Of a stretch of 64,000 nucleotides of DNA, positions 33,280 to 62,276 are shown in pieces (the stretch's first letter is position 1; every line of letters begins with the position of its first letter). The notes below the pieces were generated by a model that made no database searches, was not told the DNA's origin, and saw only the letters and a program-made list of their open reading frames with translations. A program made the translations under genes and the position numbers. The stretch is from Clostridia bacterium (GTDB taxonomy: Bacteria; Bacillota; Clostridia; Christensenellales; Borkfalkiaceae), in NCBI GenBank assembly GCA_017545865.1, contig JAFWXO010000025.1, forward strand, positions 27,273 through 91,272, written 5' to 3'.

Positions 33280-33321
33280 CAATATTTTTTAAGTGTGTTA
33301 ACATATAGCCATCAAACAAAC

Positions 33322-33588
33322 CTATGAGAAAGAGTAGTAGGTTGCTAAAACTTTTTCTAAGAGAGCCGTAGGCGGTGGGATTACGGTAAAAAGTCGCAAC
33401 TAAATGGACTTTCGAGGGCGAACGGAAAAACCTTTCAAGGTTGAGTATGGAAGACGGGGTAACTTGCCGTAATCAATAGTTAGCATATATTCGTATGCGT
33501 AAAGTGGGCGTTTTAACGCCAAGCCGGGTGGCACCACGGGTAGTAAACAACCTGTCCCAGCAATTTTGATTGCAGGGGCAGTTTTTTT
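33322..33588 (+). ncRNA. T-box leader, tryptophan-specific
   Basis: The region has stem I, specifier loop and the T-box core GGGTGGCACCACGGG (33526-33540), followed by an intrinsic terminator (33552-33588) that competes with the antiterminator. In stem I, GTTGC pairs with GCAAC and GAAAG with CTTTC; the specifier codon TGG lies just before the lower stem in AAATGGACTTTC, at about 33403-33405. Uncharged tRNA-Trp should therefore turn on the downstream trpB2. Coordinates are approximate at the 5' end. Confidence 0.9.
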
Positions 33589-33608: not shown

Positions 33609-34976
33609 ATGAAAAAAGAAATACCTTACAAAATCTATCTTGAAGAAAGTGAAATGCCTAAGGCTTGGCTTAACCTTAGAGCGTTTATGGATAAAAAGCC
33701 CGCTCCCCTTCTCGACGGGGAAACGCTTAAACCCATCACGCTTGAAAAACTTTCTAACGTGTTCTGTGAAGAACTTGCACGCCAAGAACTTGACGATGAG
33801 AGTAAATTTATTGAAATCCCTGAAGAAGTTAGAAACTTTTACAAAATGTACCGCCCTGCACCGCTCGTGCGCGCGTACTGCTTGGAAAAGGCGCTTGATA
33901 CTCCCGCTAAGATTTACTATAAGTTTGAAGGTAACAACACGTCAGGCTCGCACAAGTTAAACTCGGCAATCGCTCAAGCGTATTACGCTAAAAAGCAAGG
34001 CTTAAAGGGTGTTACCACCGAAACGGGCGCAGGTCAATGGGGAACTGCTCTTTCAATGGCTTGCTCGTACTTTGGGCTTGACTGCAAGGTGTTTATGGTA
34101 AAATGTTCGTACGAGCAAAAACCCTTCCGCCGTGAAGTTATGAGAACTTACGGGGCAGACGTTACGCCTTCTCCTTCAATGACGACTGAAGTTGGCAAAA
34201 AAATAAACGAAGAATTCCCCGGCACTACTGGCTCACTCGGTTGCGCTATTTCCGAAGCAGTTGAAGCGGCTACTTCAAGAGATGGTTACCGTTACGTTTT
34301 GGGTAGCGTTTTAAACCAAGTTCTTCTTCATCAATCGGTTATCGGTTTAGAAACTAAAACCGCGCTTGATAAATACGGCGTTAAGGCGGATATTATTATC
34401 GGTTGCGCGGGTGGCGGATCAAACCTTGGCGGTCTTATCGCTCCGTTTATGGTTGAAAAAATGCAAGGCGTTAGAGATTATCAAATTATTGCGGTTGAGC
34501 CGTCTTCTTGCCCCACTTTAACTCGTGGCGTTTACGCTTACGACTACTGCGATACGGGTAAAGTTTGCCCCTTGGCTAAAATGTACACCTTGGGTAGCGG
34601 TTATATCCCTGCGGCAAGCCACGCTGGTGGGCTTAGATACCACGGCATGACTACAACGCTCTCTGAACTTAAAGACCAAGGCTTAATGGAAGCAAGGTCA
34701 GTTCTTCAAACGGAAGTTTTCAAAACCGCTCAAACTTTTGCAAGGGTTGAAGGTATTCTCCCCGCGCCCGAATCGGCGCACGCTATCAAGGTTGCCGTTG
34801 ACGAGGCTCTCAAATGCAAGGAAACAGGCGAAGAAAAAACTATCGTGTTCGGCTTAACGGGAACGGGATACTTTGATATGATGAGTTATCAAAAGTTTAA
34901 CGACGGCGTTATGAAAGATTACGTTCCTACCGATGAAGAAATTGAAAAGGCAATCGCAAAACTCCCCAAATTTTAA
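33609..34976 (+). CDS. trpB: Tryptophan synthase beta chain, TrpB2 type
   Basis: The protein has 455 residues, a fold-type II PLP enzyme. The long TrpB2 form has an N-terminal extension, SGSHKLNSA with the PLP lysine (Lys116), TETGAGQWG with the catalytic Glu, and the phosphate loop GGGSNLGG. It joins serine and indole to tryptophan. No trpA or other trp gene lies nearby, so it probably works on free or salvaged indole, under Trp T-box control. AAAGGAG precedes the start. Terminator at 34978-35010. Confidence 0.93.
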   Translation: MKKEIPYKIYLEESEMPKAWLNLRAFMDKKPAPLLDGETLKPITLEKLSNVFCEELARQELDDESKFIEIPEEVRNFYKMYRPAPLVRAYCLEKALDTPAKIYYKFEGNNTSGSHKLNSAIAQAYYAKKQGLKGVTTETGAGQWGTALSMACSYFGLDCKVFMVKCSYEQKPFRREVMRTYGADVTPSPSMTTEVGKKINEEFPGTTGSLGCAISEAVEAATSRDGYRYVLGSVLNQVLLHQSVIGLETKTALDKYGVKADIIIGCAGGGSNLGGLIAPFMVEKMQGVRDYQIIAVEPSSCPTLTRGVYAYDYCDTGKVCPLAKMYTLGSGYIPAASHAGGLRYHGMTTTLSELKDQGLMEARSVLQTEVFKTAQTFARVEGILPAPESAHAIKVAVDEALKCKETGEEKTIVFGLTGTGYFDMMSYQKFNDGVMKDYVPTDEEIEKAIAKLPKF

Positions 34977-46587: not shown

Positions 46588-49107
46588 TCATGCTGTTACA
46601 ATCTTAGATGCCTTTTGTAAACCTAATTTCTCAACCGCGTCTTCACGCATTTTGTATTTTAAAATCTTGCCGGCAGCGTTCATGGGGAAAGAGTCGACAA
46701 AGTCAATATACTTGGGAACTTTATGGCGAGCCATATTAGCGTTAACGTAGTCTTTCATTTCTTTTTCGGTCATGGTTTCGCCGTCTTTTAAGATAATGCA
46801 AGCCATAATTTCTTCGCCGTACTGCTCGTCGGGAACGCCGATAACCTGAACGTCTTTAACCTTTTCGTGAGTGTAGATAAACTCTTCAATTTCCTTGGGG
46901 TAAATGTTTTCGCCACCGCGGATAATCATATCTTTAAGACGGCCCGTGATTTTGAAGTTACCGTCAGGAGTTTTGCAAGCAAGGTCGCCCGTGTGAAGCC
47001 AACCGTCTTTATCAATCGCTTGGGCGGTTTCTTTTGGCATTTTATAGTAGCCTTTCATAATGTTATAACCGCGGGCAACGAATTCGCCGTTCTCGTTGTA
47101 GCCACACTCTTCGCCCGTTTCGGGGTTAACGATTTTGCACTCAATTTCAGGGAGCGCTCTACCTACCGTTGAAACTCTCGTTTCGATAGTATCGTCAGTT
47201 GAACTCATGGTGCAACCGGGGGACGCTTCAGTTTGACCGTAAACGATAGTGATTTCCTTCATATTCATCTTGTTAACCACTTCGTTCATTGTTGATATCG
47301 GGCAAGGACTTCCCGCCATAATACCCGTTCTCATATACGAGAAGTCGGTATTTTTAAAGTCAGGATTTTCCAAAAGGGCGATAAACATAGTGGGAACGCC
47401 GTGGAAAGCGGTGATATGCTCGTTGTTAATGCATGCAAGCGCAGGCTTTGGCGAGAAGTACGGGAGCGGATATAAAGAAACGCCGTGAGTCATACTTGCC
47501 GTCATTGCAAGCACCATACCAAAGCAGTGGAACATAGGAACTTGAATCATCATACGGTCAGCCGTTGATAAATCCATACGGTCGCCTATACACTTACCGT
47601 TATTAACGATATTGTAGTGCGTGAGCATAACGCCTTTTGGGAAACCAGTTGTACCGGAGGTGTATTGCATATTGCAAACGTCGTCTTTATCGACTAAACT
47701 TGCCATGCGGTAAACTTCGGAAAGGGGAACTTTATTCGCGCGTTCTAACGCTTCGTTCCAAGTGATTGCGCCTTTCATTTTAAAGCCAACGGTGATAACG
47801 TTTCTTAAAAAGGGCAAACGCTTGCTGTGAAGTTGCTTGCCCGACGGAACTTTTTCAAGTTCGGGGCAAAGAGTAGAAATTGCGCTTGCATAGTCGCTAT
47901 CTCTCCAACCCTTAACCATAATAAGAGTGTGAGTATCAGATTGCTTTAACAAATATTCCGCTTCCGCAATCTTATATGACGTGTTCATCGTAACGAGCAC
48001 CGCGCCTATTTTTACGGTTGCCCAGAACGCTATATACCATTGTGGAACGTTGGTTGCCCAAACGGCAACGTGAGAGCCTGCCTTTACGCCAAGCGCAATT
48101 AAAGAACGGGCAAACTCGTCAACGTCGTCACGGAATTCGCTATACGTTCTCGTATAATCGAGCGTGGTATACTTAAAAGCGTACTGATCGGGGAATTCTT
48201 CAACCATACGGTCTAAAACTTGCGGGAAGGTAAGGTCGATTAAAAGTTCCTTCTTCCAAAGGAATTTACCCGTGTGGGTTTTGTTGTAATAGTAAACCGT
48301 TTCGTTCTTTTTGGTATCGCCAAACGAACGCATGTAGTTTATAAATTGAGATAAAACGATTTCCAAATCGTCAAGTTCGGCGCACCACTTAGGATCCCAA
48401 ACGAGAGAGATGTAGCCGCTAAAATTTACCGAGCGGAGCGCAAGCATAACGTCTGCAATAGGAAGTTCGCCTTCGCCAACCAAACGGTATTCAACGCCGT
48501 TATCCGTTTTAACCCCGTCGGTAATTTGAACGTGGGAAACGTAAGCGCCTAAGTTTTTGATAATTTTTTCGGGTGTTTCGCCTTTTTGGAAATAGCAAGT
48601 TGCGGTATTCCAAAGAACTGCTAAATTATCGCTTGCAAACTCATCCATCATGGCGCGAAGAACGGAAGTATCCGCAAATATGCCGGAAGTTTCTAAAAGT
48701 AACACTATTTGAGTGTCTTCAAACTCTGGTAAAATTTCATTGATTAAGTTTTTAGCGTTATCGTAAGCGCCTTCATCGTTTGAAGAAGACTTAATTCTGA
48801 TATACGGAATTCTAAGATTTAACGCGATATTTTTGCAACGGTTAATCTCGGCAATAGCGTCAGCCTTTTTAGAAAGGTCGGAAATATCGGTTAAACAGTC
48901 AATACAAGGTATTGAAAGTTTTTTATCGTATAACTTTCTCATAGTGGACGCGGACGAATAGTCGTGGAACGCGCCGTCTTTATCGGTGAATAAGCGGTTG
49001 TAAACGTTGTGAAGTTCAACCCCGTCAAACTTCAAATTTGAAGCAACGGATAAAAATTCATCAAACGTATTATTGTGCCAACCCCTCGTTGAGAACGAGA
49101 ATTTCAT
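46588..49107 (-). CDS. Fusion of sugar-isomerase-like TIM barrel with acyl-CoA synthetase
   Basis: The protein has 839 residues. Residues 1-265 are a xylose-isomerase-like (AP endonuclease family 2) TIM barrel: FDGVELHNVYNRL, IVLLLETSGIF, SHVQITDG, GEGELPIADV. Residues about 275-835 are an AMP-forming acyl-CoA synthetase: YTSGTTGFPKG, YGQTEASPG, WLHTGDL, DMIIRGGENIYPKEIEE, and the catalytic Lys in FPMNAAGKILK. Ligation of a carboxylic acid to CoA is likely; the barrel might act on a sugar-related substrate first. GGAGG precedes the ATG, three bases after the LeuA-like stop, so it is in that Leu T-box operon. Fusions of this type are uncommon. Confidence 0.88.
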   Translation of the reverse strand: MKFSFSTRGWHNNTFDEFLSVASNLKFDGVELHNVYNRLFTDKDGAFHDYSSASTMRKLYDKKLSIPCIDCLTDISDLSKKADAIAEINRCKNIALNLRIPYIRIKSSSNDEGAYDNAKNLINEILPEFEDTQIVLLLETSGIFADTSVLRAMMDEFASDNLAVLWNTATCYFQKGETPEKIIKNLGAYVSHVQITDGVKTDNGVEYRLVGEGELPIADVMLALRSVNFSGYISLVWDPKWCAELDDLEIVLSQFINYMRSFGDTKKNETVYYYNKTHTGKFLWKKELLIDLTFPQVLDRMVEEFPDQYAFKYTTLDYTRTYSEFRDDVDEFARSLIALGVKAGSHVAVWATNVPQWYIAFWATVKIGAVLVTMNTSYKIAEAEYLLKQSDTHTLIMVKGWRDSDYASAISTLCPELEKVPSGKQLHSKRLPFLRNVITVGFKMKGAITWNEALERANKVPLSEVYRMASLVDKDDVCNMQYTSGTTGFPKGVMLTHYNIVNNGKCIGDRMDLSTADRMMIQVPMFHCFGMVLAMTASMTHGVSLYPLPYFSPKPALACINNEHITAFHGVPTMFIALLENPDFKNTDFSYMRTGIMAGSPCPISTMNEVVNKMNMKEITIVYGQTEASPGCTMSSTDDTIETRVSTVGRALPEIECKIVNPETGEECGYNENGEFVARGYNIMKGYYKMPKETAQAIDKDGWLHTGDLACKTPDGNFKITGRLKDMIIRGGENIYPKEIEEFIYTHEKVKDVQVIGVPDEQYGEEIMACIILKDGETMTEKEMKDYVNANMARHKVPKYIDFVDSFPMNAAGKILKYKMREDAVEKLGLQKASKIVTA

Positions 49108-49110
49108 TTT

Positions 49111-50487
49111 TTATTCCTCCTCGTAAGCGATTTTGTTTACTGCGCTAACGTACGCTTTAATACTTGCGCCTATAATGTCGGTTGAAATACCTGAGCCACT
49201 GTAAAGCTTGCCGTTATTTCTAAGTTTAACGAGCGCCGAACCTACCGCGCCTTTACCTTCGGTTACTGATTTTATTGAGAAGTTATCAAGTTCGTAATGG
49301 TGGCCGATAATCTCGTCGATTGCTTTAAACGCTGCGTCAACAGGGCCGTCACCTAAGCAAACGGCTTGCAAGTTCTTTCCGTCTTTTTCAAGAGTTACGG
49401 AAGCGCTCGTTGTGATAACGTTGCCGTTGTTGATAACGTAACTGATAAGTTTATAAGTGGTGGGAACTTGCATAGCAACGGTTGAAACGATAGCGTCAAG
49501 TTCCTTAGCGCCAACTTCTTTTTTGCTTGCAACTTTTAAAAACTCATCGTAAACCTTTTTAACGTCTTCCTCGGTTAAATCGTAGCCAAGCATCGTTACG
49601 GCGTTTGCAACCGTTTCAATAGTGTCACTTTCAACTAAGTTAATACCGTCACTTTCACTTGATACGGGGGAAATTGCGTGAATTTCCGTCTTATCGGTCA
49701 CTTTTTCAATTTGTTTAACGATGCGGTTAAGTTCAGTTGCCTTAGCGTTAACGGAAATTCCAAAGGTGTTACCGCAAGCGTAAACCGTGCCGATAAACGT
49801 CTTTAAAGAAACGAAACCGTCGGTTGCCTTAGTTTTAACAACGCCTGCCCCTGCTCTAACCGCCATAACGGCGATAGCGTTTGCAAGCCCGTTTTTATCG
49901 CTTGCCGAAACACCGAGAGTGATTTCGGGGAATTCGCTCTTTAAAGCGGAGATAAATTCAATGAACGCATCGGGAAGCGTTTCGCCACTATCTTCGGAAA
50001 CGGTTATTTCTTTAACGCCAAGTTCGGTTGCCGTTTTGATGAGTGATTTTAAAAGTTCAAAGTCGGCGCGAGTAGCGTCACAAGCGGAGAACTCAACGTT
50101 GCAACCAGCGCTCATGCACTCTTTAACACACTCTTTTAAGTAGTCGCAAATCTTTGCGGGTTTTTTACCGCAAACGTATTCAAGACCAACTGGAGAAACT
50201 GGGAATTCAATTCTAATCTTGGCGTTTTTAATTCCGCTAATTGCTTTGATTGCCTTTTCAACGCTACCAGCCGAAACGCCTGCGCCAACGGAAATAACGC
50301 CGTTTTTAACGAAGGAAGAAACAGTCCTTACAAGTAGCGTGTCAACTTTTTCTTCGATAATTTCAGGTAGTTCAATCACGTCAACTTTCAAATTTTCAAG
50401 TTGGCGAGCAATTTCAATTTTTTCTCTGAACGAAAAACCGCTTTCGCTACAAACTAAGGTTTTGTCTGCAATAATTACTTTCTTCAT
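49111..50487 (-). CDS. 2-isopropylmalate synthase-like protein without catalytic motifs
   Basis: The protein has 458 residues. The C-terminal third (about 335-455: VQVPTTYKL-like, GDGPVDAAFKAIDEIIG, GISTDIIGASIKAYVSAVNK) matches the LeuA allosteric (leucine-binding) domain. The N-terminal HMGL-like barrel is recognisable by spacing (ADKTL at 7-11, CDATR at 136-140) but lacks the usual RDGEQ, HxHND and GERAGN motifs; SASDK (194-198) stands where HCHND is expected. It is therefore probably not an active synthase. It is headed by a Leu T-box and followed by the acyl-CoA synthetase fusion. A leucine-sensing or scaffold role is inferred. Confidence 0.75.
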   Translation of the reverse strand: MKKVIIADKTLVCSESGFSFREKIEIARQLENLKVDVIELPEIIEEKVDTLLVRTVSSFVKNGVISVGAGVSAGSVEKAIKAISGIKNAKIRIEFPVSPVGLEYVCGKKPAKICDYLKECVKECMSAGCNVEFSACDATRADFELLKSLIKTATELGVKEITVSEDSGETLPDAFIEFISALKSEFPEITLGVSASDKNGLANAIAVMAVRAGAGVVKTKATDGFVSLKTFIGTVYACGNTFGISVNAKATELNRIVKQIEKVTDKTEIHAISPVSSESDGINLVESDTIETVANAVTMLGYDLTEEDVKKVYDEFLKVASKKEVGAKELDAIVSTVAMQVPTTYKLISYVINNGNVITTSASVTLEKDGKNLQAVCLGDGPVDAAFKAIDEIIGHHYELDNFSIKSVTEGKGAVGSALVKLRNNGKLYSGSGISTDIIGASIKAYVSAVNKIAYEEE

Positions 50488-50511: not shown

Positions 50512-50790
50512 TATAAAAAATCCCTTATGCGTTAAGCGTAAGGGACGATTAGTTATATCGTGGTACCACCCTAATTCCCTAAACTAAGTTTAGGCTCAGT
50601 CGAGTTCAAACAAACTCTATGCCGTGATAACGGGGCAAGCCGTAGTCGCCTACTGTAAGTTCAGCGTCTCTGCTCCGGAACGAGACTTAAAAATTCAGCC
50701 CTATTGACTTGCACCAACCGTCAACTCTCTGAAAGCGACCAACGAATTTTTAATAATTCCATCTTTGCATTTGGGGTAAATAATTAAATT
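50512..50790 (-). ncRNA. T-box leader, leucine-specific
   Basis: The minus-strand leader contains a stem I with GGUG-type apical region, the T-box core TAGGGTGGTACCACG (about 50573-50559) and a terminator hairpin TCCCTTACGC / GCGTAAGGGA-like at 50545-50521 followed by six T. The specifier loop lies between a GAATTTTT arm and a lower stem GGAA/TTCC; CTC directly before GTTCC is the codon, so leucine. Uncharged tRNA-Leu should read through into the LeuA-like gene. Its 5' end is approximate. Confidence 0.85.
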
Positions 50791-53297: not shown

Positions 53298-54083
53298 TTA
53301 CTTTTCGTTTTTGTAAATTTCTTTAAAGTATTTGTAAGTATCAACTTTCAATTCGCCACAAGCTGCTTCATCGCAAGCAATAATACCGTCTTTATGTAAT
53401 TGAAGGGCGCTAATAGTCCAAGCGTGGTCAACGCCACCTTCAACGCAGTGACGGAGAGCGCGCGCCTTGTTGTGACCGCTAATAAGCAATAAAACTTGCT
53501 TAGAATCGCAAACCGTGCCAACGCCAACCGAAAGAGCGGTTTTGGGAACTTTGTTAGGATCGTTATCAAAGAAACGAGAGTTTACGATTAAAGTATCTTC
53601 AGTTAAAGCGCGAACGCCAGTTCTTGAAGTTAAGGAAGTGAAAGGTTCGTTGAAAGCAATATGCCCGTCAACACCGCTACCGCCTAAGAATAAATCAATA
53701 CCGCCGTAAGATGCAATCTTATCTTCATAACGCTTGCACTCTGCTTCTAAATCCTTTGCCATACCGTCTAAAATATTAACGTTTTCAGCAGGGATATCGA
53801 TGTGATTGAAGAAGTTATCGTGCATAAAGTACCAGTAGCTTTGGTCGTGTTCTCTTGGAAGACCAACGTACTCGTCCATATTGAAAGTTACAACGTTTTT
53901 AAAGGTAACTTTGCCTGCTTTGTTCATTTCAATAAGTTTTCTATAAACGCCGAGCGGAGAAGAACCGGTGGGAAGACCTAAAATGAAAGGGCGATCTTCT
54001 TTATGGTTGTTAATTGCGTTAGCAATATGTTCAGCAGCCCATTGGCTCATAGCGTCATAATTATCTTTGATAATTAACTTCAT
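53298..54083 (-). CDS. nagB: Glucosamine-6-phosphate deaminase
   Basis: The protein has 261 residues. It converts glucosamine-6-P to fructose-6-P and ammonia. The family motifs are [27 protein letters not shown] with the catalytic Asp and His, and RFF-DN near 175. AAGGAG precedes the ATG. Its presence beside Gfo/Idh and hydrolase genes points to amino-sugar use, but its operon link is broken by a terminator at 54171-54204. Confidence 0.95.
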
Positions 54084-54170
54084 AATTATTACTCCTTAAA
54101 AATTTTTTAATTTTCACATTGATTATACAACTTATAAATGCTTTTGTAAAGACCTTTAAGCGATTTTTTA

Positions 54171-54205
54171 ATTAAAAAACCAAGGCGTTTTGCCTTGGTT
54201 TTTAG
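54171..54205 (-). terminator. Terminator of the Gfo/Idh operon
   Basis: CCAAGGC GTTTT GCCTTGG with a T-run on the minus strand, between the Gfo/Idh and nagB genes. Confidence 0.85.
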
Positions 54206-54206
54206 A

Positions 54207-55463
54207 TTACTTAGTATAATCGAGAACTTCCCAGTCAGCGGGGGGATTACCCAAATCGGGAACGTCCATAAGAACACCGCCAGCTAATGCCGACTCGTGA
54301 GCAACAAGACCTGGGATATTGTATCTTGCAACCGCCCAAATGTTAGTGGGAGATAATTTACCGGTTGCAAACGCTCTACAGAAGTCGTCAATAAGGAAGT
54401 GGTGAGTACCGTTGTGACCGTTGCCTAAACCTTCATACTCTTTGGGTAAACGGTCAAGCGGTTGAATAGGCGAAGTTGCATAGAAACCAAAACCTTCGGA
54501 AATGTTTTGAATAGCCGAATCGTAATCTTCTTTTATCATCTTGGAAACTTCAACAGGTTGCAACTCGTCGGTAACCCTTCTCATTTTAACTAAACCCGGG
54601 CGTTCAGGGTCCCAAGTGCTTAAATGGTGGTTGGCAACTGAGAATTCGTAACCGCCGTTAGTACCGTAGAATTGAGAAATATAAGTTTCGGGCGCGCGCC
54701 AGCCAACGCATCTGTTTTCGCTAATTCTTGCAATACCGCCATTAGAAAGTTTAACGAGCATCGCTTCGTTAGCGAACGGGTTATCGTAATGGTTTTGACC
54801 ATCTCTACCGAAAATATCCGTTCTTGGGCTTCCTTCATAACCCATAGCCGCAACCTTAGTAACGTAAACGCCGGGCATTGAACTTAAAATCATTGCGGTT
54901 GAGTGAGTGGGATAGAAGAACGGCGGAACGCCTGCAAACTTTTTCCAGTCATCGCCACCAGAACTCTTGAAAGCATCTTCCATAATACTCATATCGTGGT
55001 TATAGTGCGCTTCAGCGTAAACGAACTTACCGAAAGTGCCTTTTGCAAACTCTCTACGGCAGAAAAGCGCAGGCGCGCGGTACGCGCCCGTTTCACCCAT
55101 AGAATAAGTTAAACGCGTTTCTTCAACCAACTTTGCAATCTCTTTAATTTCATCAATCGAAACGGCGCAAGGAACTGCGGAATATACGTGCTTGCCTGCT
55201 TTTAACGCGTTGATTACGAGCCTACCGTGGCTAAATCTTTGCGTAAATATTGCAATCGCGTTGATTGACTTATCTTCAAGAGCCTTTTCGTAACTTTCAT
55301 AGCCTTCAACGCCAAACTTTTCCATATATTCTTGTTGGCGTTCTTTCTTTAAGTCGCAAACGTAAACCTTTTCAACAACGGGGTGCGCTTTGAAAAGGGG
55401 CACGAAGAACTTACTAAAACGCCCACAACCGATAATAACAACTCTCATTTTTTCATTATTCAT
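54207..55463 (-). CDS. Gfo/Idh/MocA-family oxidoreductase
   Basis: The protein has 418 residues. An N-terminal Rossmann fold (VVIIGCGRFSKFF) binds NAD(P), EKALEDKSINAIAIFTQ and AGKHVYSAVP follow, and the C-terminal alpha/beta domain completes the family. It oxidises or epimerises a sugar, inositol, or glycoside; the substrate is unknown. AAAGGAG is the ribosome site at the 55463 start. It is the last gene of the long reverse-strand cluster. Confidence 0.88.
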   Translation of the reverse strand: MNNEKMRVVIIGCGRFSKFFVPLFKAHPVVEKVYVCDLKKERQQEYMEKFGVEGYESYEKALEDKSINAIAIFTQRFSHGRLVINALKAGKHVYSAVPCAVSIDEIKEIAKLVEETRLTYSMGETGAYRAPALFCRREFAKGTFGKFVYAEAHYNHDMSIMEDAFKSSGGDDWKKFAGVPPFFYPTHSTAMILSSMPGVYVTKVAAMGYEGSPRTDIFGRDGQNHYDNPFANEAMLVKLSNGGIARISENRCVGWRAPETYISQFYGTNGGYEFSVANHHLSTWDPERPGLVKMRRVTDELQPVEVSKMIKEDYDSAIQNISEGFGFYATSPIQPLDRLPKEYEGLGNGHNGTHHFLIDDFCRAFATGKLSPTNIWAVARYNIPGLVAHESALAGGVLMDVPDLGNPPADWEVLDYTK

Positions 55464-55483
55464 AATTTTTCTCCTTTAATCTT

Positions 55484-56965
55484 TTAAGATTTAGCAACGA
55501 CGTATCCGCCGATATCGTCAAACACGTATTGACCGAGTTTTCTAATATAAACGTTAACTTCGTCGTTTTTAAAATTTGCAGTTATTTGCATTTTGCCAAA
55601 ATAACTGTCAATAACTTGAACTTTAATTGCCAAAGTGTTATCGTCAATAAACCCAGCGGAAGACAAGCACTTGTATTTGCCGTCAACCTTTACGCCCATC
55701 ATATCTTCTTTGGCGCGCTTGCCAAACGAAAACTCTACTTCTTTATTTTCGTTAAAAGCAAAATCTATATGATTTTTTATTCCGTTGCAGACGAAACTAA
55801 ACCTACCGCCGTTACCAAAAAAATCAAACTTAACTTCGGATATATTCATTGAGTTTTCTATAACCGATTTATAGGTAACACCGTTAATTTTATCTATAAC
55901 GCTTGATGTTTTGTTTCCGTACTGCGCGATTAACTTCCTTCCCTTTTCAAACTCTCTAAGGGCTTTTAAATCCCTTTCGTTTTCTTCAATAGGCGAGCCG
56001 TTTATTTTGGGAATAAAGTGATTATTAAGTTCGTGATAGATAACCCTATCCGCATTAGACGCGCCTTGATTATCCGATTGAATAACGAAAGTAAAATCGT
56101 TTTTCTCGTTATAAAAAACGTATTGACCGCCAAGCCCAGCAAGGGCAAAACCGTTATCCGTTATCCAAATCAAATACCCGTAACCACCGTTATCATACGA
56201 GTTATAATCGGCATATAGGTCGTTTTTTGACTGAACGCTAACGGCGTTATCCATAAACTCTTTGTCGATATACTGCTTGCCGTTTACATAGCCACGCTTA
56301 GCAATAAATCTAGCAAAGATATACATATCGTTAAGGGTGCACAGCACTCCCGAATCGCCAACGGCATAGCCACCAGGCTCGGTTAAAACGTAACTTTCCG
56401 CTGAAAAGCCAAGGTCTAAAAGCACCTTTTCTTTTAAATATTCTAAGAAGTTTTTGCCCGTTAATTTTTTAATGATATTGCCAAGAACGAACGAGCCGAT
56501 GCTATCATACCAAAAGATTGAATTTGGTGATTTTACTGACTTTTGTGAGTAATACGCTTTAGTTCTACTATCAAACTTTCCCCACCAGTAAACGTTTGAG
56601 CCGATATTGCTTTGCATTTTAAGCATATCTAAAATGGTGCAACGCTCGTAAAACTCATCGATATTTTCGTTTCTATTTTCAGGAAAGTAATCGATAATCT
56701 TATCGCTAAGAGATAAAAGTTTTTCGGTATAAGCAAGCCCTATTGCAATCGCAACGAAACTTTTTGAAACGGAATAAACCCTATGCAAAAACTTATCGTT
56801 AAACGGCTTATAATAAGCGGATGAAAAAACCTTATCTCCACGCGCCATAAGTATGGAGTGGGTGTAAAAACCGCAAGACTCTAAAGTTTTATAAAATTCA
56901 ATAACGTCTTTTGACGCAACGCCAACGCTTTCCGGCGTTGCGCTTAGAATTTTAAACTTTTCCAT
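55484..56965 (-). CDS. Beta-lactamase-family serine hydrolase
   Basis: The protein has 493 residues of the penicillin-binding/class C-like fold. Residues S65-V-S-K68 (in VYSVSKSF) form the SxxK; the second motif is a Tyr in FWYDSIGSF rather than a plain YxN, and the third motif GLGGQYVF replaces KTG/HTG. A C-terminal beta domain (about 350-493) follows. There is no signal peptide, so it is cytoplasmic; esterase or amidase activity is more likely than beta-lactam hydrolysis. It follows the third QueG-like gene after five bases. Confidence 0.75.
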   Translation of the reverse strand: MEKFKILSATPESVGVASKDVIEFYKTLESCGFYTHSILMARGDKVFSSAYYKPFNDKFLHRVYSVSKSFVAIAIGLAYTEKLLSLSDKIIDYFPENRNENIDEFYERCTILDMLKMQSNIGSNVYWWGKFDSRTKAYYSQKSVKSPNSIFWYDSIGSFVLGNIIKKLTGKNFLEYLKEKVLLDLGFSAESYVLTEPGGYAVGDSGVLCTLNDMYIFARFIAKRGYVNGKQYIDKEFMDNAVSVQSKNDLYADYNSYDNGGYGYLIWITDNGFALAGLGGQYVFYNEKNDFTFVIQSDNQGASNADRVIYHELNNHFIPKINGSPIEENERDLKALREFEKGRKLIAQYGNKTSSVIDKINGVTYKSVIENSMNISEVKFDFFGNGGRFSFVCNGIKNHIDFAFNENKEVEFSFGKRAKEDMMGVKVDGKYKCLSSAGFIDDNTLAIKVQVIDSYFGKMQITANFKNDEVNVYIRKLGQYVFDDIGGYVVAKS

Positions 56966-56970
56966 AACTT

Positions 56971-57933
56971 TTACTTGTCTTCTTTATTATAATTTTCAAA
57001 CTGTTCGGTAGAAAGTTTCCACTCTTCCCCTTCTCTGAACGGGCGATTGAACGATTTTTTAAGCAAACCTTTCTTTTCTAAATGAGCGTAGCACGCTCTA
57101 TCGCACGCCCTTGCGCAAATCGATGCGCGATAGAAGTGTTTTGCAGGGGGATAGAAGAAAATGTTATCTAAAATTTCCTTTGCGCCTTCACTGTCGAACT
57201 CAGCCGTGCCGTTGATAATAGCCATTTTCTTTTCTTTATCAAAATTAGCAAACGCTTCAGGGGGCATAAACGGGTTTTTGCTACCGTTTGCGCCGTTATA
57301 GTATACCGCGCAACGCCAACAGTCAACCTTTCCGTCGTCTGAAATCGCTCTACCAGGACAAGCTTTGATACACTCGTTACAACCGTCGCAAAGTTTAGCG
57401 GTTACAATCGGCGTTTCTTCAAGTTCCATATCCGTTAAGATAAAGCAGTAACGGATAAACGGGCCGTATTCTTCGTTTAATAATGAGCCTATTTTACTCT
57501 TTTCGCCAAGCCCGCACTTTACAGCGCAGTCTAAGAAATTGAGTTGGTTTTCTTTGGTTACGCCGTGATAAACGTCAACGTAGTCAACTTCAGGGTTGGT
57601 AGTGCCCGTTTCGTTTTTGATAAGCGGACTTATTTTTTGGGGAACGGCAATATAGCCTTCCCCTTCGATAAGGTTGGAAACGCGAAGAAGCGCCATCGGC
57701 ATAACCGTTTCTTCTAAGTTTTCAACGCCCATAGTCGTATATTGATAATAGGTTGAGCCTTCTTCAACACCGCGATAAATACCGCGCAAAACTCTAAAAC
57801 CTAAGCCGATAACAGTTTTAGTTTCAGGGAAAATTTTAAATACGGGGTCGTTTTTATCAAAGCGACTTGCAGGCGCAAAGCCAACTATATCCGCATCGCA
57901 TTTTTTAGCAAGTTTTATAATTTGTTCTCTCAT
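56971..57933 (-). CDS. QueG-like Fe-S reductase (third of three)
   Basis: The protein has 320 residues. The N-terminal part resembles the corrinoid-binding-type domain of epoxyqueuosine reductase (VIGLGFRVLRGIYRGVEEGS). One [4Fe-4S] motif is CDGCNECIKACPGRA, and a second set is RCAVYYN and CARACDRACYAHL. The short size and lack of the QueG C-terminal HEAT-like part set it apart from QueG. ATG overlaps the previous stop by four bases. A cofactor-dependent reduction of a small substrate is inferred, not known. Confidence 0.7.
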   Translation of the reverse strand: MREQIIKLAKKCDADIVGFAPASRFDKNDPVFKIFPETKTVIGLGFRVLRGIYRGVEEGSTYYQYTTMGVENLEETVMPMALLRVSNLIEGEGYIAVPQKISPLIKNETGTTNPEVDYVDVYHGVTKENQLNFLDCAVKCGLGEKSKIGSLLNEEYGPFIRYCFILTDMELEETPIVTAKLCDGCNECIKACPGRAISDDGKVDCWRCAVYYNGANGSKNPFMPPEAFANFDKEKKMAIINGTAEFDSEGAKEILDNIFFYPPAKHFYRASICARACDRACYAHLEKKGLLKKSFNRPFREGEEWKLSTEQFENYNKEDK

Positions 57934-58835
57934 AATTTTCCTTGCTCCTTTAAGTGTTTATAGCACACCGTTTCGCACGACTTACCGCAAAGGCAAGCAA
58001 CGTAACCAAGGTGAGTTTTCGGCAAGAAATCAAGCTTGGGATAAATCGCTTGGGCGCTTTCCCTATCAAACTTCTTTTCGCCGTTTAAGATTGCTTCTCT
58101 TTCGGGGTGGTCTTTAAGCGTTTCTTCCGTTACAAACGGGTTAGATTTATGCGCGCCACGATAGTATACGCTACATTGCCAACTATCAACGCCGTTATCT
58201 GAAATCGCCTTTCCAGGGCAAGCGTTTAAGCACTTACCGCACTTGTCGCAAAGTTCTTCTTTGAAAGGCTCGTCACACTCAAGGGGCATATCTGTAATGA
58301 TGAATACCCAACGCATAAACGTGCCGTATTTTGGCGAAATAACTTTGCCGTGCAAACCGATACTGCCAAGCCCGCACACAACCGCCGCCTTGTTATAATC
58401 GATAATAACGTCGGGCGCGGGTTTGCCTTCGGCTACGGGCGAAGCAAACTGCAATTCGTAAATGCGTGAAACTTCGGGGTTGGTCGACTTATCACCCTTT
58501 ACTTTAAAACCAGGGATAAATCTTTGAAGACAAGCATCGTAGCCTGCGTCTTCAATCATTGCTCCCATCTTTAAAAGGAAAATTTCAGCAAACATTTCGT
58601 CGGTATATTTTACGCCTACGTTTACGTAATTGAAATACTGTCTTTTATCTTCCATAGCCATATATAAACCCTTAGGTACGGGAATACCAAAGCCTATAAT
58701 GCAAGTGGCTTTAGGAAGTATTGATAATGGGTTGCGTTGGGGATCATCGCCGATAAAATGCTTAATATCGCCGATACCGCAAACGCCAGCGCCAAGTTCA
58801 ATGGCTTTTTCTTTAATCATTTTAGCCGTTATCAT
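57930..58835 (-). CDS. QueG-like Fe-S reductase (second of three)
   Basis: The protein has 301 residues, similar in layout to its neighbours: a QueG-type N-terminus (CIIGFGIPVPKGLYMAMED), the first [4Fe-4S] motif LCDKCGKCLNACPGKA, then WQCSVYYRG and a second Cys set CLCGKSCETVCYKHL. AAGGAGC precedes the start. It overlaps the cupin stop by one base. The function is unknown. Confidence 0.7.
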   Translation of the reverse strand: MITAKMIKEKAIELGAGVCGIGDIKHFIGDDPQRNPLSILPKATCIIGFGIPVPKGLYMAMEDKRQYFNYVNVGVKYTDEMFAEIFLLKMGAMIEDAGYDACLQRFIPGFKVKGDKSTNPEVSRIYELQFASPVAEGKPAPDVIIDYNKAAVVCGLGSIGLHGKVISPKYGTFMRWVFIITDMPLECDEPFKEELCDKCGKCLNACPGKAISDNGVDSWQCSVYYRGAHKSNPFVTEETLKDHPEREAILNGEKKFDRESAQAIYPKLDFLPKTHLGYVACLCGKSCETVCYKHLKEQGKL

Positions 58836-59209
58836 TATCTTTGCTCCTTTATCTCATCTTCCGTCAAAATTTTCTTATCGGAATTTTCTTTAGTAGTGTT
58901 GCTGTTTTCAACAACGAAAACGAGCGCGTCTTTACTAACTTTCAAATGATGCCAAGTGTTCTTCTTAACAACGTATAACTTCTCTTTTTCAAGTTCGGTT
59001 TTTTGCAAAGGCTCGTCACCTTCCGCCGTATACATCGTTGCCGTGCCGTTTATAAGCAAGAACGCTTCATCGGTTAAGGTGTGCCTTTTAATAACTTCCA
59101 ACTCGTCAAACTGGTCGGCGTAAGTTAAAAACGCCACCTTCCAACCTTCAAACGTATGTAAAACGTCAAAACCATTACCGTTATTAGGATTTTCAATAAT
59201 TTCTATCAT
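58835..59209 (-). CDS. Cupin-fold small protein
   Basis: The protein has 124 residues from ATG 59209, which overlaps the previous stop (ATGA) and has GGAAG upstream; an ATG 15 bases earlier is less likely. A cupin beta-barrel is indicated by DEAFLLINGTATMYT and WHHLKVSKDALVFVVENS. It lacks a clear full set of metal His ligands. It may bind a sugar or act as a sensor or isomerase in this cluster; unknown. Confidence 0.65.
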   Translation of the reverse strand: MIEIIENPNNGNGFDVLHTFEGWKVAFLTYADQFDELEVIKRHTLTDEAFLLINGTATMYTAEGDEPLQKTELEKEKLYVVKKNTWHHLKVSKDALVFVVENSNTTKENSDKKILTEDEIKEQR

Positions 59210-60285
59210 CTGTCCATCTTCCATGCTTTGCCTTCACGCAAGGGGTGTTCAAACCTACCTTCCATGCATCCGCCTTTCTTTTCAAGCATACTTACGCACG
59301 CTCTTATGCAACCGCCACACTTAGCCATATTGTAACCTACCCAACTTGGGAAATACTCTTCAAGCGCAGTGTAAACTTTCATAACTTCTTTTTCGTTCGC
59401 CACGTTTGTTACGCCTTCAAGAAGATCAAGCATACCGTTTTCGTTCTTATCGAAAACTTCCTTGGGCACGAACGGGTTAAAGTATCTACCGCCGTGAGTG
59501 TAGAACGCGTAACAACGCCACATATCAATGTCGCCCCACTCGCAAAGTTTACCGTCAAGATTAACTGAGATAGTCTTGCCCGACTTAATCGACGGAATAC
59601 ATCCGCCCGGGCACTCTCTAACGCACGCACCACACTTTCTACAAAGCGGTTTACCGTTATACATTTCATCGTATTCAAGTTCCGCATCGGTAAAGATAAA
59701 CGCCACACGTTGTAACGGACCAAACTCAGGTGTTAAAAGCATTTTGCTCCAACCGATTTCGCCAAGACCGCACGCAACCGCTGCCAAACGGAATTGAAAT
59801 TGCAAATCGGGCGGTTGTTTGCCTTCTCCAACGGGGCGGGTAAATTGAACGCTTCTGTGGTGCGCCGTTTTACCCTTAGCGTGTTTGCTAATTTCAATTT
59901 GTTCTTCGGGCGAAAGGGTGTTGCCGGGCGTTCCGTCCATATCCGAAACTGCGCCACGAGCGCCAGTGTTACGATAAACGAAGGCTTCGTAGCCCGCGTC
60001 TTCAATCACTTTACCAACGTGGTATAAAACTGCGGGGGCGTGAATTTCATTTATACCGCCGTACGCCATTGACGGATATTGATAGAACTGAGTTCCTTCC
60101 TCAATACCCCTTTGAACGCCACGCGGAATTCTAAACGCCATCGCAATACAGCTCTTTGCTTGCGGGAATAAAAATTGCGGATTCATAACGTCAGGCGCGC
60201 CGTTAAAACGGCTCATAGGGCCAATTCCGCAAAGGTCTGCTCCGGCTTCAAGCGCCGCTTCTTTAATCATTTTGCTGGTAAGCAT
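59206..60285 (-). CDS. QueG-like Fe-S reductase (first of three, longest)
   Basis: The protein has 359 residues. The N-terminal domain (SCIAMAFRIPRGVQRGIEEGT) resembles the epoxyqueuosine reductase/reductive-dehalogenase-like cobamide-binding fold. CRKCGACVRECPGGC is a [4Fe-4S] motif, followed by RCYAFY and CGGCIRACVSMLEKKGGCM. It is longer than its two paralogues by about 40-60 residues, partly in the insert between the Fe-S motifs. GGAGG precedes ATG 60285, and the start overlaps the U32-like stop by 23 bases. Role unknown. Confidence 0.7.
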   Translation of the reverse strand: MLTSKMIKEAALEAGADLCGIGPMSRFNGAPDVMNPQFLFPQAKSCIAMAFRIPRGVQRGIEEGTQFYQYPSMAYGGINEIHAPAVLYHVGKVIEDAGYEAFVYRNTGARGAVSDMDGTPGNTLSPEEQIEISKHAKGKTAHHRSVQFTRPVGEGKQPPDLQFQFRLAAVACGLGEIGWSKMLLTPEFGPLQRVAFIFTDAELEYDEMYNGKPLCRKCGACVRECPGGCIPSIKSGKTISVNLDGKLCEWGDIDMWRCYAFYTHGGRYFNPFVPKEVFDKNENGMLDLLEGVTNVANEKEVMKVYTALEEYFPSWVGYNMAKCGGCIRACVSMLEKKGGCMEGRFEHPLREGKAWKMDR

Positions 60286-61273
60286 AATCTTCCTCCAATT
60301 TTACGAACGCGTCACCGCCGTCCGAATAAATCAATTTTTCTTTATCGTAAGTTACCAAAACGTTTTTATTTTCTAAAACGAAAGGATATATTGAACTTGA
60401 GTGGTCGGGTTCTAAAAGCCCTGCTAAGTTGCCAACGAACTTGGCGTTATCGATATATGCGCGAAGTATTCTCGTTGGGTTGCCATGAACTCTCGTTGCA
60501 AGTTTCATAGCGGGGGTAAGCCCTTCGTACAAGTAAACGTCTTCCGGGCGAATAAAACTTGTGCCCGTTAGCAACCAACCGCGCTTGTCTTCACTCATTA
60601 AATACTTTCGGCAAACGCTTTCAAAAGCGTAACCATTGTCCATTTTAGCAATTTCTTTCTCGTGAGCAACTAAGTTATCGTGGAAGGTGTGCGCCGAGCA
60701 ATCGTTCAAGCAACCGCTGTTTGCAAGCAAGAACATTTGCTTGCCGTTTTTATCACACCACGCTCTAATTTCTCTAAGCGCTTTAAGGTCACGGTTTTTT
60801 TCGCGTTGAATATAAAAACTATCAAAGTATTCAGAAACGTATTCTAAACCGTGAACAGTGCCTATTTTCATATTGACTGAAGCGCGAACGTCAATCCCGT
60901 TAAAATTTTGCTTTATAAACTTGGCAATTAACGGAGAAGTGGTAGTTACCGAAGTTAAGTTAAAACGGCTTGCATAATCTAACGTTTCGCCAACTTGATT
61001 AAACAAAGCGCGAGATTGCGCCATCTCTCCATAACAGTTTGCATTAAATAAAAGGTTGAGTTTAATTCCTTCGCTTGCAAGTTTTTCGAGATCTCTTATC
61101 TGTTTTGCTTGCGCTTCCCAAGGCGTTAACCCTTCGCTACGAGTTTGATCGTTCCTACCGCTTGGGAACGCGCCCCAAGAACAGTAAACTTCGTAAATAT
61201 TTTCCTTTCTTTTTATAATTTCGTTAGTCAAACTCTCGCCCGACCTAACGCTATATCCAACGGAAAACTTCAT
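60263..61273 (-). CDS. U32/UbiU-like TIM-barrel protein
   Basis: The protein has 336 residues, TIM-barrel-like, with a Cys-containing loop SGCLNDCSAHTFHDN and a later VCRKYL, as in U32/UbiU-type proteins, which bind an Fe-S cluster and carry out oxygen-independent hydroxylation or other reactions in anaerobes. True U32 peptidase activity is unlikely. AAGGA precedes the ATG. It is the first gene of the cluster and faces the AraC gene across 157 bases. Confidence 0.65.
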   Translation of the reverse strand: MKFSVGYSVRSGESLTNEIIKRKENIYEVYCSWGAFPSGRNDQTRSEGLTPWEAQAKQIRDLEKLASEGIKLNLLFNANCYGEMAQSRALFNQVGETLDYASRFNLTSVTTTSPLIAKFIKQNFNGIDVRASVNMKIGTVHGLEYVSEYFDSFYIQREKNRDLKALREIRAWCDKNGKQMFLLANSGCLNDCSAHTFHDNLVAHEKEIAKMDNGYAFESVCRKYLMSEDKRGWLLTGTSFIRPEDVYLYEGLTPAMKLATRVHGNPTRILRAYIDNAKFVGNLAGLLEPDHSSSIYPFVLENKNVLVTYDKEKLIYSDGGDAFVKLEEDYAYQQND

Positions 61274-61304
61274 CTCTTTATCCTTTTGATATTTTTATAA
61301 AATA

Positions 61305-61382
61305 ATTATACTGCATTTTTTATTACTATAATAGCATAAAATAAACCTAAAAACTACACAAAATAAACTTTTTTACTTGATT
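61305..61382. promoter_or_regulatory. AraC-type divergent control region
   Basis: Two direct repeats AAAATAAAC lie at 61338-61346 and 61360-61368, 22 bases apart. Forward promoter TTGATT (61377-61382), 17 bases, TATAAT (61400-61405) drives the AraC gene. Reverse -10 TATAAT (61310-61305) has no good -35, and the repeats lie just upstream of that site, the arrangement expected for AraC activation of the U32/QueG cluster. Confidence 0.65.
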
Positions 61383-61430
61383 ATTATTATGGTTTTAGTT
61401 ATAATTAAATAGAAAAAGGGGGGTGGCATT

Positions 61431-62276
61431 TTGAATTATTTGAAGATAAATCCGTTTATAAGATACGCAGGTCAACACACTTATCACTATAACAAGCGTG
61501 AAAATAGCGTGTGTTACGATTGCAGATTGTTCTATATCGAGCAAGGCAAAGGCACGCTTTTCGCAAACGGGCAAACGTATTTAATCTCTGGTAACGAAGC
61601 GGTTTTTTTACCACCCGAAAGCGTGTATCGCTTTTCATTTTCAAACCCAAGCGCAATTAAGATTTTTATACTCAATCTTGACCTAACTGATGAATTTTCG
61701 GCCTATAGCAAGTCTTTTAGCACTGCAACCGAAGAAACGTTTGATAAAACGCTAACGTTAAAATACGATTTGCCAAGTGAATTTCAAACGCCAATCGTTC
61801 AAAAAAACGCCTTTTCAATCCGCGAAAATATGATAAAATGCATTGATTTATTCTTGCAAAAAACCCCGTATTATAAAGAAGACGTTTCAGCCCTTGCAAA
61901 ACTATCTCTGCTTGAAATTTTACGCGGACAGCAAAGTGACGACTATTCCGTTATCCAAACCGTTTTAGAGTTTGTTAGAGAAAATTACAGTTTGCCAACC
62001 CTTACCAACCAAACGATTGCCGAACGCTTCCACTACCACCCTAACTACTTAAATAGGATAATTAAGGCGTACACTAAAAAAACCTTGCACGAATACCTTT
62101 TAGATTACCGTATCCAAATGGCAAAGCGATATTTATCTTCAACAAAACTTAGCGTAACGCTAATTGCGGAAAAAACTGGATTTTCTTCTTACACTTATTT
62201 TATAAGGTATTTTAACAAAAAAACGGGGGAATCTCCCCTTCAATATCGCCGTAGTCACGAAAGCATAGGTATGTAA
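61431..62276 (+). CDS. AraC-family transcriptional regulator
   Basis: The protein has 281 residues from TTG 61431, behind a GGGGGGTGG ribosome site. An N-terminal cupin-like sensing domain (about 20-130: CRLFYIEQGKGTLFANGQTY) is followed by two AraC helix-turn-helix repeats (about 180-275: HYHPNYLNRIIKAYTKKTL, IAEKTGFSSYTYFIRYFNKK). It probably senses a sugar-like ligand and activates the divergent QueG-like cluster through the AAAATAAAC repeats. Its own promoter is near consensus. Confidence 0.88.
   Translation: MNYLKINPFIRYAGQHTYHYNKRENSVCYDCRLFYIEQGKGTLFANGQTYLISGNEAVFLPPESVYRFSFSNPSAIKIFILNLDLTDEFSAYSKSFSTATEETFDKTLTLKYDLPSEFQTPIVQKNAFSIRENMIKCIDLFLQKTPYYKEDVSALAKLSLLEILRGQQSDDYSVIQTVLEFVRENYSLPTLTNQTIAERFHYHPNYLNRIIKAYTKKTLHEYLLDYRIQMAKRYLSSTKLSVTLIAEKTGFSSYTYFIRYFNKKTGESPLQYRRSHESIGM

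Follow-up and report, generated by a model that had tools for sequence, protein, structure and literature searches.

A conserved AraC-linked gene cluster in Clostridia combines a U32-like protein with three predicted class III cobalamin-type double-[4Fe-4S] proteins

We analyzed a 64,000-nucleotide stretch of DNA (hereafter, the window) from a Clostridia bacterium (GenBank assembly GCA_017545865.1, contig JAFWXO010000025.1, positions 27,273 to 91,272), which is the rightmost part of a 91 kb contig in a 1.59 Mb genome that is 94.9% complete. Seven minus-strand genes, as read from the list of open reading frames (ORFs) and from the sequence, overlap or almost touch one another from position 61273 down to 54207, in the order U32-like protein, Q1, cupin, Q2, Q3, serine hydrolase, and Gfo/Idh oxidoreductase, with Q1, Q2, and Q3 being paralogues of the double-[4Fe-4S] type. 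A prediction previously made from the sequence alone (hereafter, the original prediction) had singled out this cluster, and every ORF that it named is present where it had been placed. Consecutive genes overlap by 23, 19, 1, and 4 bases, followed by gaps of 5 and 20 bases; the second overlap, between Q1 and the cupin, shrinks to 4 if the cupin begins at its sixth codon, likewise ATG, and with this later start the overlaps of 23, 4, 1, and 4 bases reported earlier are right. The features, numbered from the first base of the window, are:

60263 to 61273, minus strand: U32-like protein, predicted (beta-alpha)8 Fe-S protein of 336 residues, the operon's first gene
59206 to 60285, minus strand: Q1, putative class III cobalamin-type double-[4Fe-4S] protein, 359 residues (profile match, residues, model)
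58835 to 59224, minus strand: small putative cupin (Cupin_2 and WbuC matches, both below cut-off)
57930 to 58835, minus strand: Q2, putative class III cobalamin-type double-[4Fe-4S] protein, 301 residues (TIGR02486, residues, hhalign)
56971 to 57933, minus strand: Q3, putative class III cobalamin-type double-[4Fe-4S] protein, 320 residues (TIGR02486, residues)
55484 to 56965, minus strand: beta-lactamase-fold serine hydrolase/acyltransferase, 493 residues (PF00144, E 1e-21)
54207 to 55463, minus strand: Gfo/Idh/MocA oxidoreductase, 418 residues (PF01408, E 9.8e-21)
61431 to 62276, plus strand: divergent AraC-family regulator, 281 residues, TTG start (HTH_18, E 2e-22; AraC_binding, E 8.5e-7)
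61338 to 61368: probable AraC operator (predicted), AAAATAAAC twice
54176 to 54202: hairpin read from the sequence, probable terminator closing the operon
53298 to 54083, minus strand: nagB, glucosamine-6-phosphate deaminase, a neighbor (TIGR00502, E 2.9e-119, over cut-off)

Each of the three Q proteins keeps, in alignment, the eight cysteines of a 2x[4Fe-4S] pattern, which bears out their earlier description as QueG-like double-[4Fe-4S] proteins. Two chemistries are proven for class III cobalamin enzymes, dehalogenation and epoxyqueuosine reduction, and the Q family is related to the enzymes of both: by profile, its closest solved relative is the reductive dehalogenase 8q4h (E 7.8e-20), and the match to QueG 5d08 has an E value of 1.6e-15. 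For the dehalogenase family TIGR02486, however, Q1, Q2, and Q3 reach 40.4, 58.4, and 46.7 bits, below the cut-off of 160 (E values, likewise below cut-off, are 1e-15 for Q2 and 3.8e-12 for Q3), and for the QueG family TIGR00276, they reach 27.2, 49.7, and 45.2 bits, below the cut-off of 200. For Q2, comparison of alignment A3 with a dehalogenase by hhalign gave a probability of 98.8. The structure model of Q1 has the cobalamin-domain fold with a C-terminal double [4Fe-4S] module by which class III is recognized. Residues 107 to 150 are unfolded in this model; an insertion here was considered and rejected as a special feature of Q1, since residues 103 to 155 are conserved at 0.87 vs. 0.88 to 0.92 elsewhere in the protein. 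Q1, Q2, and Q3 each form a clade of their own in a midpoint-rooted tree with long outgroup branches, the deeper order of which is unsafe. The G+C content of Q1 is 0.48, compared to 0.39 for the window.

The cluster recurs in other genomes. In a first search, the U32-like protein was found in 7 of 61 relatives, one of them by only a weak partial match, and a contig scan with the same protein returned four metagenome-assembled genomes, all four carrying the full cluster, with sheep colon and roe deer colon named in the titles of two. Profile searching then placed it in 31 of 391 genomes of the class, 23 of them (about 6%) at E 1e-40 or better, while in a draw of 398 genomes from the phylum, it was present in eight at E 1e-12, two of these reaching E 1e-40 or better (the window's own genome and G474), and the Q-family profile matched 5 of 398 in a phylum draw. 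We read 39 loci with strong matches, the window included, leaving out the 12 weak-match loci L088 to L099 as well as L021 and L029. Genes for the U32-like protein, Q1, Q2, and Q3 stand in this order in 20 of the 39, the core being sometimes interrupted by the cupin gene (or, in L077, by another gene); L071, where the ORF caller missed most of the set and profile matches show Q1 to Q3, was counted apart as a 21st full cluster. Contig ends cut three loci. In 11 others, a U32-like and a Q1-like gene are paired, and Q2 and Q3 are missing; in L020, two Q genes stand together with no U32 gene; and in L024, L066, and L082 (which starts at a contig end), the U32-like gene is the only core gene. Recurrence of the four core genes in order is not chance, and the genes are not scattered, as they might have been had the original prediction been wrong. 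Across the 20 loci, median pairwise identity was highest for Q1 (84%), followed by Q2 (65%), Q3 (63%), and the U32-like protein (55%), and was 33% for AraC, a figure based on the best-scoring AraC gene at each locus, sometimes one other than the divergent gene.

The two families also occur together across genomes. Of the 391 genomes, 29 match the Q family at E 1e-40, and these include every one of the 23 that match the U32-like protein strongly; chance alone would put 1.7 of the 23 in that set. Both draws show the same genome handles, and the profile, built on Q1, catches Q2 and Q3 too. The other six have a Q-family match without a strong U32-like match, and four of these six are under 85% complete. 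The components are all of known folds; it is their partnership that is unusual and well conserved. No published description of the cluster was found in the open-licence literature, which is not proof of absence.

Related sets were also seen. On the window's own contig, to the left of the window, lies a second, divergent Q1-like/U32-like/AraC set (L019:4873-7773, contig C27), whose U32-like protein has a cysteine-rich tail that is absent from the window protein and whose Q1-like protein has near-identical counterparts in the sister genomes L025 to L027. The Q-type gene pair without U32 (L020:7702-9746) stands beside a divergent AraC gene and a histidine operon; an Rnf electron supply for this pair, guessed from gene sizes, was rejected, the neighbors being that histidine operon. 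Other genomes, too, have neighboring Q-family matches with no U32.

The original prediction had held that the cluster is not the queuosine pathway, and this view stands. PF08331, the QueG N-terminal domain, is absent from the genome at E 0.001 and from Q1 to Q3 at E 0.1. Only 10 residues follow the last cluster cysteine in Q2 and 29 in Q1, so that Q2 (and likewise Q1) lacks room for the QueG-type C-terminal domain, a helical repeat on the tRNA side that is noted in a passage of PMC4646009. Also unlike QueG, there are three paralogues per operon. PF08331 proteins over cut-off occur in only 8 of the 29 module-bearing genomes, where they are separate genes in frames of 264 to 272 residues, and the queuosine pathway was rejected as a candidate.

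Residues of the predicted active site were counted from the alignment; a count by regular expression had missed 7 of 22 Q2 and 1 of 20 Q3 proteins and was without the helix anchor in 11 further Q3 proteins. The alignment leaves out Q1 of L072 and Q2 of L064 (both at contig ends), the second L020 protein, and Q1 and Q3 of L071. An arginine and an acidic residue of the putative active site are both kept in 74 of 74 Q-family proteins. Counted on the profile alignment, Arg193 of Q1 aligns with Arg305 of PceA; the relevant passage of PMC4646009 reports QueG to be without an equivalent of this Arg305 and matches QueG Asp130 to RdhA Asn272 and QueG Tyr101 to RdhA Tyr246. Position 160 of the Q proteins (Asp160 in Q1) has a spacing of 12, as for Asn272, vs. 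13 for the Asp of Enterococcus QueG, and the QueG alignment is shifted near this position. By hhalign, the QueG Tyr falls on E80 and the dehalogenase Tyr on H82. Glu occupies position 80 in 21 of 21 Q1, 21 of 21 Q2, and 20 of 20 Q3 proteins (62 in total), with Tyr there in 9 of 12 outlying Q1-like proteins, and at position 82, Tyr stands in 7 of 21 Q1, 10 of 12 outlying, 0 of 21 Q2, and 0 of 20 Q3 proteins. It is safe to say from these alignments that Q2 and Q3 have no Tyr at either aligned place, with the arginine and the acid invariant; as aligned, this combination of residues fits neither QueG nor the dehalogenases.

These residues bear on whether the cluster could carry out reductive dehalogenation of natural gut organohalides with a set of soluble, short dehalogenases. 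Such a role would agree with 8q4h being the closest solved relative by profile and with the dehalogenase arginine being kept in all 74 aligned proteins, yet the three window Q proteins lie far below the TIGR02486 cut-off, and the Q proteins differ from PceA and NpRdhA in having an acid in the place of Asn272 and, in Q2 and Q3, no counterpart of the essential, conserved Tyr at either aligned place. The twin-arginine leader and membrane-anchor partner of RdhA are absent too, the proteins starting at the enzyme domain and no anchor-type gene appearing among operon ORFs of at least 80 residues; catabolic dehalogenases are likewise without leader and anchor, and that absence alone therefore does not exclude a dehalogenase. 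An acid could protonate an oxygen leaving group, which would favor carbon-oxygen over carbon-halogen cleavage. We consider dehalogenation the least probable of the alternatives weighed here.

The U32-like label is correct as judged from the predicted fold and profile comparison, and it does not come from Pfam: the window protein has no PF01136 match in the Pfam scan, its paralogue from that genome is exactly at the cut-off (22.4 of 22.4 bits), and the more distant relatives L097, L094, and L088 lie over it. The model is a (beta-alpha)8 barrel, the U32 fold, with 5d88 as its clear best match, and C80, C188, C192, and C221 are invariant in 38 aligned homologues; barrel and four invariant cysteines are shared with UbiU/UbiV, TrhP, RlhA, and 5d88. 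An hhalign comparison of the family against just the two ordinary U32 proteins of the genome gave a weak match (probability 6); the probability rose to 99.9 once relatives were added, several of them found by the family's own profile. Another difference from known U32 proteins is that the partners here are of the class III type rather than a second U32 protein. As the passages of PMC11574389 on ubiquinone synthesis have it, the oxygen comes from prephenate, which may hold for other U32 oxidases; a prephenate-using enzyme is encoded in 26 of the 29 module-bearing genomes, a finding that is compatible with prephenate use but weak.

Since, according to the same passages (PMC11574389), the substrates of characterized U32 proteins are tRNA, rRNA, and ubiquinone precursors, and since QueG acts on tRNA, the cluster might instead serve RNA, nucleoside, or cofactor modification, or nucleoside or cobamide salvage. 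The patchy, accessory spread of both the U32-like and the Q proteins, the AraC neighbor, and the short ends of Q1 and Q2, which leave no space for a C-terminal helical domain, speak against such roles, to which we give only a slight chance. Away from the cluster, distant U32 proteins from larger genomes are encoded beside nonribosomal peptide synthetase, ketoacyl synthase, or radical SAM genes (L097:8142-9440, L090:3880-5097, and L088:8629-10065), which suggests that they are tailoring enzymes in biosynthetic clusters.

Upstream of the operon, the direct repeat AAAATAAAC lies at 61338 and again at 61360, a distance of 22 bases (on the minus strand, GTTTATTTT), in agreement with the repeats that the original prediction had placed near the divergent AraC gene. 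Across the whole window, this word has seven plus-strand occurrences. A related word, TTTGTTTT, is present in 18 of 23 upstream regions of 200 bases, against 1.4 expected and a maximum of 8 in 200 resamplings; these 18 do not include the window, which has the variant TTTATTTT twice. Several relatives carry a second TTTGTTTT copy about 21 to 22 bases off, upstream of the U32-like gene. The upstream sequences are related, and shared descent therefore contributes to this recurrence. Paired sites are the usual layout for AraC-family regulators, and the repeat is probably the AraC operator. In all full clusters but L032 and L078 (18 of 20), the U32-like gene has a divergent AraC gene directly next to it.

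The remaining genes of the operon are optional. Among the 20 full clusters, some read in stretches that end early, 11 carry the Gfo/Idh gene, 9 the cupin gene, and 4 the hydrolase gene. The cupin matches Cupin_2 (E 0.0057) and WbuC cupin (E 3e-4), each below cut-off, and the hydrolase is nearest to beta-lactamase-fold acyl enzymes, with a below-cut-off match to the NCBIfam 3-succinylated cholic acid synthase (E 1.2e-43). The nearest solved relatives of the Gfo/Idh protein, and its best sequence matches in the Protein Data Bank, are the C-glycoside oxidase DgpA (9m3d, E 3.4e-16; 7xr9, E 6.3e-15) and then the GH109-type 2ixa (E 1.2e-12). This likeness, to enzymes with which the protein shares the Gfo/Idh domain but from which it differs in being optional and in standing beside Fe-S-type proteins, is the sole hint as to substrate. 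Beyond the operon, the hairpin at 54176 to 54202, flanked by T/A runs and not listed by the terminator scanner, lies between Gfo/Idh and nagB, in keeping with the earlier remark that nagB follows a terminator. nagB has promoter-like hexamers of its own (54150 to 54122, 11 of 12 matches), although promoter-like sites in the region are no commoner than in shuffles, and no nagB homologue was found within the 12 to 21 kb read around any of the six other full clusters compared. It probably lies outside the system. The flank scan covered 78 of 85 proteins (100 to 1,400 residues) around 19 full clusters, core and optional genes excluded; among the first 25 of 119 families, which were tabulated, no Pfam family occurred in more than 5 of the 78 neighbors, AraC HTH domains being the commonest, and no shared partner emerged.

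These observations divide the original prediction of a cofactor-dependent reductive pathway for a sugar-like or amino-sugar-like compound. An AraC-linked class III set fits the first part. The sugar part is not supported: nagB is separated by the hairpin; Gfo/Idh, cupin, and hydrolase are optional; and the flanks have no consistent sugar theme. A catabolic operon for a sugar, amino sugar, or glycoside, with the redox enzymes acting on the sugar itself, would draw on the Gfo/Idh kinship to DgpA and GH109 in 11 of 20 clusters, the scattered neighbors (acetyl-xylan esterase, GH20, GH42, and aldose epimerase), and the adjoining nagB. However, these sugar genes are inconsistent neighbors, the stretch read for 9 of the 20 clusters contains no Gfo/Idh gene, and we know of no class III cobalamin enzyme that acts on free sugars. 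We regard this alternative as improbable.

The reading that we tentatively favor, at somewhat less than an even chance, is an AraC-induced operon in which a U32-type [4Fe-4S] barrel protein and three class III cobamide-type reductases modify a small molecule. An accessory, AraC-linked gene set with varied flanks and no conserved transporter, together with the kinship of the Gfo/Idh protein and the hydrolase, favors such an inducible reductive route. The regulator would sense the small molecule and switch the operon on from the paired upstream sites; in each Q protein, the two [4Fe-4S] clusters would relay electrons to a base-off cobamide, whose Co(I) state would reductively cleave a polar bond of the substrate, most likely carbon-oxygen, while acidic residues near the cobalt would protonate the leaving group, as proposed for QueG. 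The U32 protein may act on the same route by oxidizing or hydroxylating in an oxygen-independent manner. Q1 and the U32 protein would be the minimal unit, extended by Q2 and Q3, and the cupin, hydrolase, and Gfo/Idh would be optional trimming enzymes suiting an acylated or glycosylated substrate, the substrate being small and possibly so decorated. A narrower version is possible but more doubtful, namely an anaerobic, previously undescribed pathway of gut Clostridia in which an oxygen-independent U32 oxidase and three specialized, cobamide-dependent class III reductases together take oxygen off a small dietary or host molecule or shift it, with an active site unlike that of QueG (an arginine added) and unlike that of the dehalogenases (an acid for Asn, the Tyr lost or moved). 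Passages of PMC4646009 allow that further class III families may exist that are hard to find without a binding motif. As a candidate, the cluster is compact, conserved, and linked to a regulator, its sequence features set it apart from both proven class III chemistries, and it ties class III cobalamin-type proteins to U32 proteins; its product could be one of the gut's unexplained reductive transformations.

Several observations weigh against this reductive reading. The Q1 model is moderate (predicted local distance difference test, 72), modeling having covered Q1 and the U32-like protein, and there is no sure Q counterpart for the proton-donor Tyr common to QueG and the dehalogenases. In the U32-like protein, the cysteine spacing is C-X107-C-X3-C-X28-C, not the CX6CX15CX3C that a passage of PMC11574389 calls typical of U32 oxidases. 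Divergence is correlated among the core proteins (Mantel r of 0.74 to 0.86 among Q1, Q2, and Q3, and of 0.47 to 0.63 with the U32-like protein and AraC, none reached in 2,000 permutations), which may also stem from shared species history. The conserved gene set contains no transporter, and the neighbors are not consistent. Finally, three Q-bearing genomes of the same genus (G002, G005, and G007) have no B12 marker over threshold, although at 83 to 93% completeness this is not proof of absence, and in G004, where the 17 kb examined contain the U32-like gene but no Q gene, both markers are under threshold.

Some of these points would suit Q proteins that no longer bind cobamide, whose nitroreductase-like domain would be a relic and whose two clusters would merely carry electrons to or from the U32 protein, the sole catalyst. 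The recurring Q1-like/U32-like pair (11 of 39 loci hold just these two), the three same-genus genomes that have the pair or cluster without a B12 marker over threshold, and the lack, at either aligned place, of a counterpart for the class III catalytic Tyr in Q2 and Q3 agree with this. On the other hand, an arginine and an acid kept in every aligned protein are beyond the needs of a relic, three specialized paralogues are hard to account for by electron transfer alone, and the L020 pair of Q genes stands without U32, as do the Q-family matches of the six genomes lacking a strong U32-like match, four of which are less than 85% complete. We judge the carrier role unlikely, yet the most serious competitor to the reductive reading. 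Of the 29 module-bearing genomes, 20 have a cobalamin riboswitch over cut-off and 24 a B12-binding domain; the window's own genome has a strong B12-binding domain in an 837-residue frame and a weak riboswitch match (25.3 vs. 31.5 bits). Behind this riboswitch match lie genes for a DUF4430 protein and a very hydrophobic 182-residue protein (L130:5154-6079, L137:2961-3465), which resemble a DUF4430 and energy-coupling factor (ECF) transporter S component pair annotated beside queG on an Enterococcus gilvus plasmid, the DUF4430 parts being 27% identical over 48 residues. In passages of PMC9963975, a DUF4430 gene stands beside rtpR, and a lipoprotein is listed as part of a putative cobalamin ECF transporter. 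The pair is probably a corrinoid uptake unit.

A defence system was also considered and dropped, none of seven proteins having a match in PADLOC. In a tblastn search of plasmids with Q2, 13 records matched and none covered 80% of the query, and the annotated matches were QueG, dehalogenases, and SCP2-named proteins. Among related plasmid proteins are those of Nostoc and Priestia (L136:3803-5035 and L138:3611-4954), annotated as SCP2 sterol-binding and containing a QueG-like stretch; they are noteworthy in that the U32 pair UbiU/UbiV has an SCP2 protein, UbiT, as its partner.

Elsewhere in the window, T-box leaders lie at 33315 to 33562 (plus strand), upstream of a TrpB-like gene (33609 to 34976), and at 50538 to 50774 (minus strand), upstream of a 2-isopropylmalate-synthase-like gene (49111 to 50487). 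Directly after the latter, T-box-led leuA-like gene, positions 46588 to 49107 encode an 839-residue protein whose residues 287 to 831 match fatty-acid CoA ligases and which has about 285 extra N-terminal residues.

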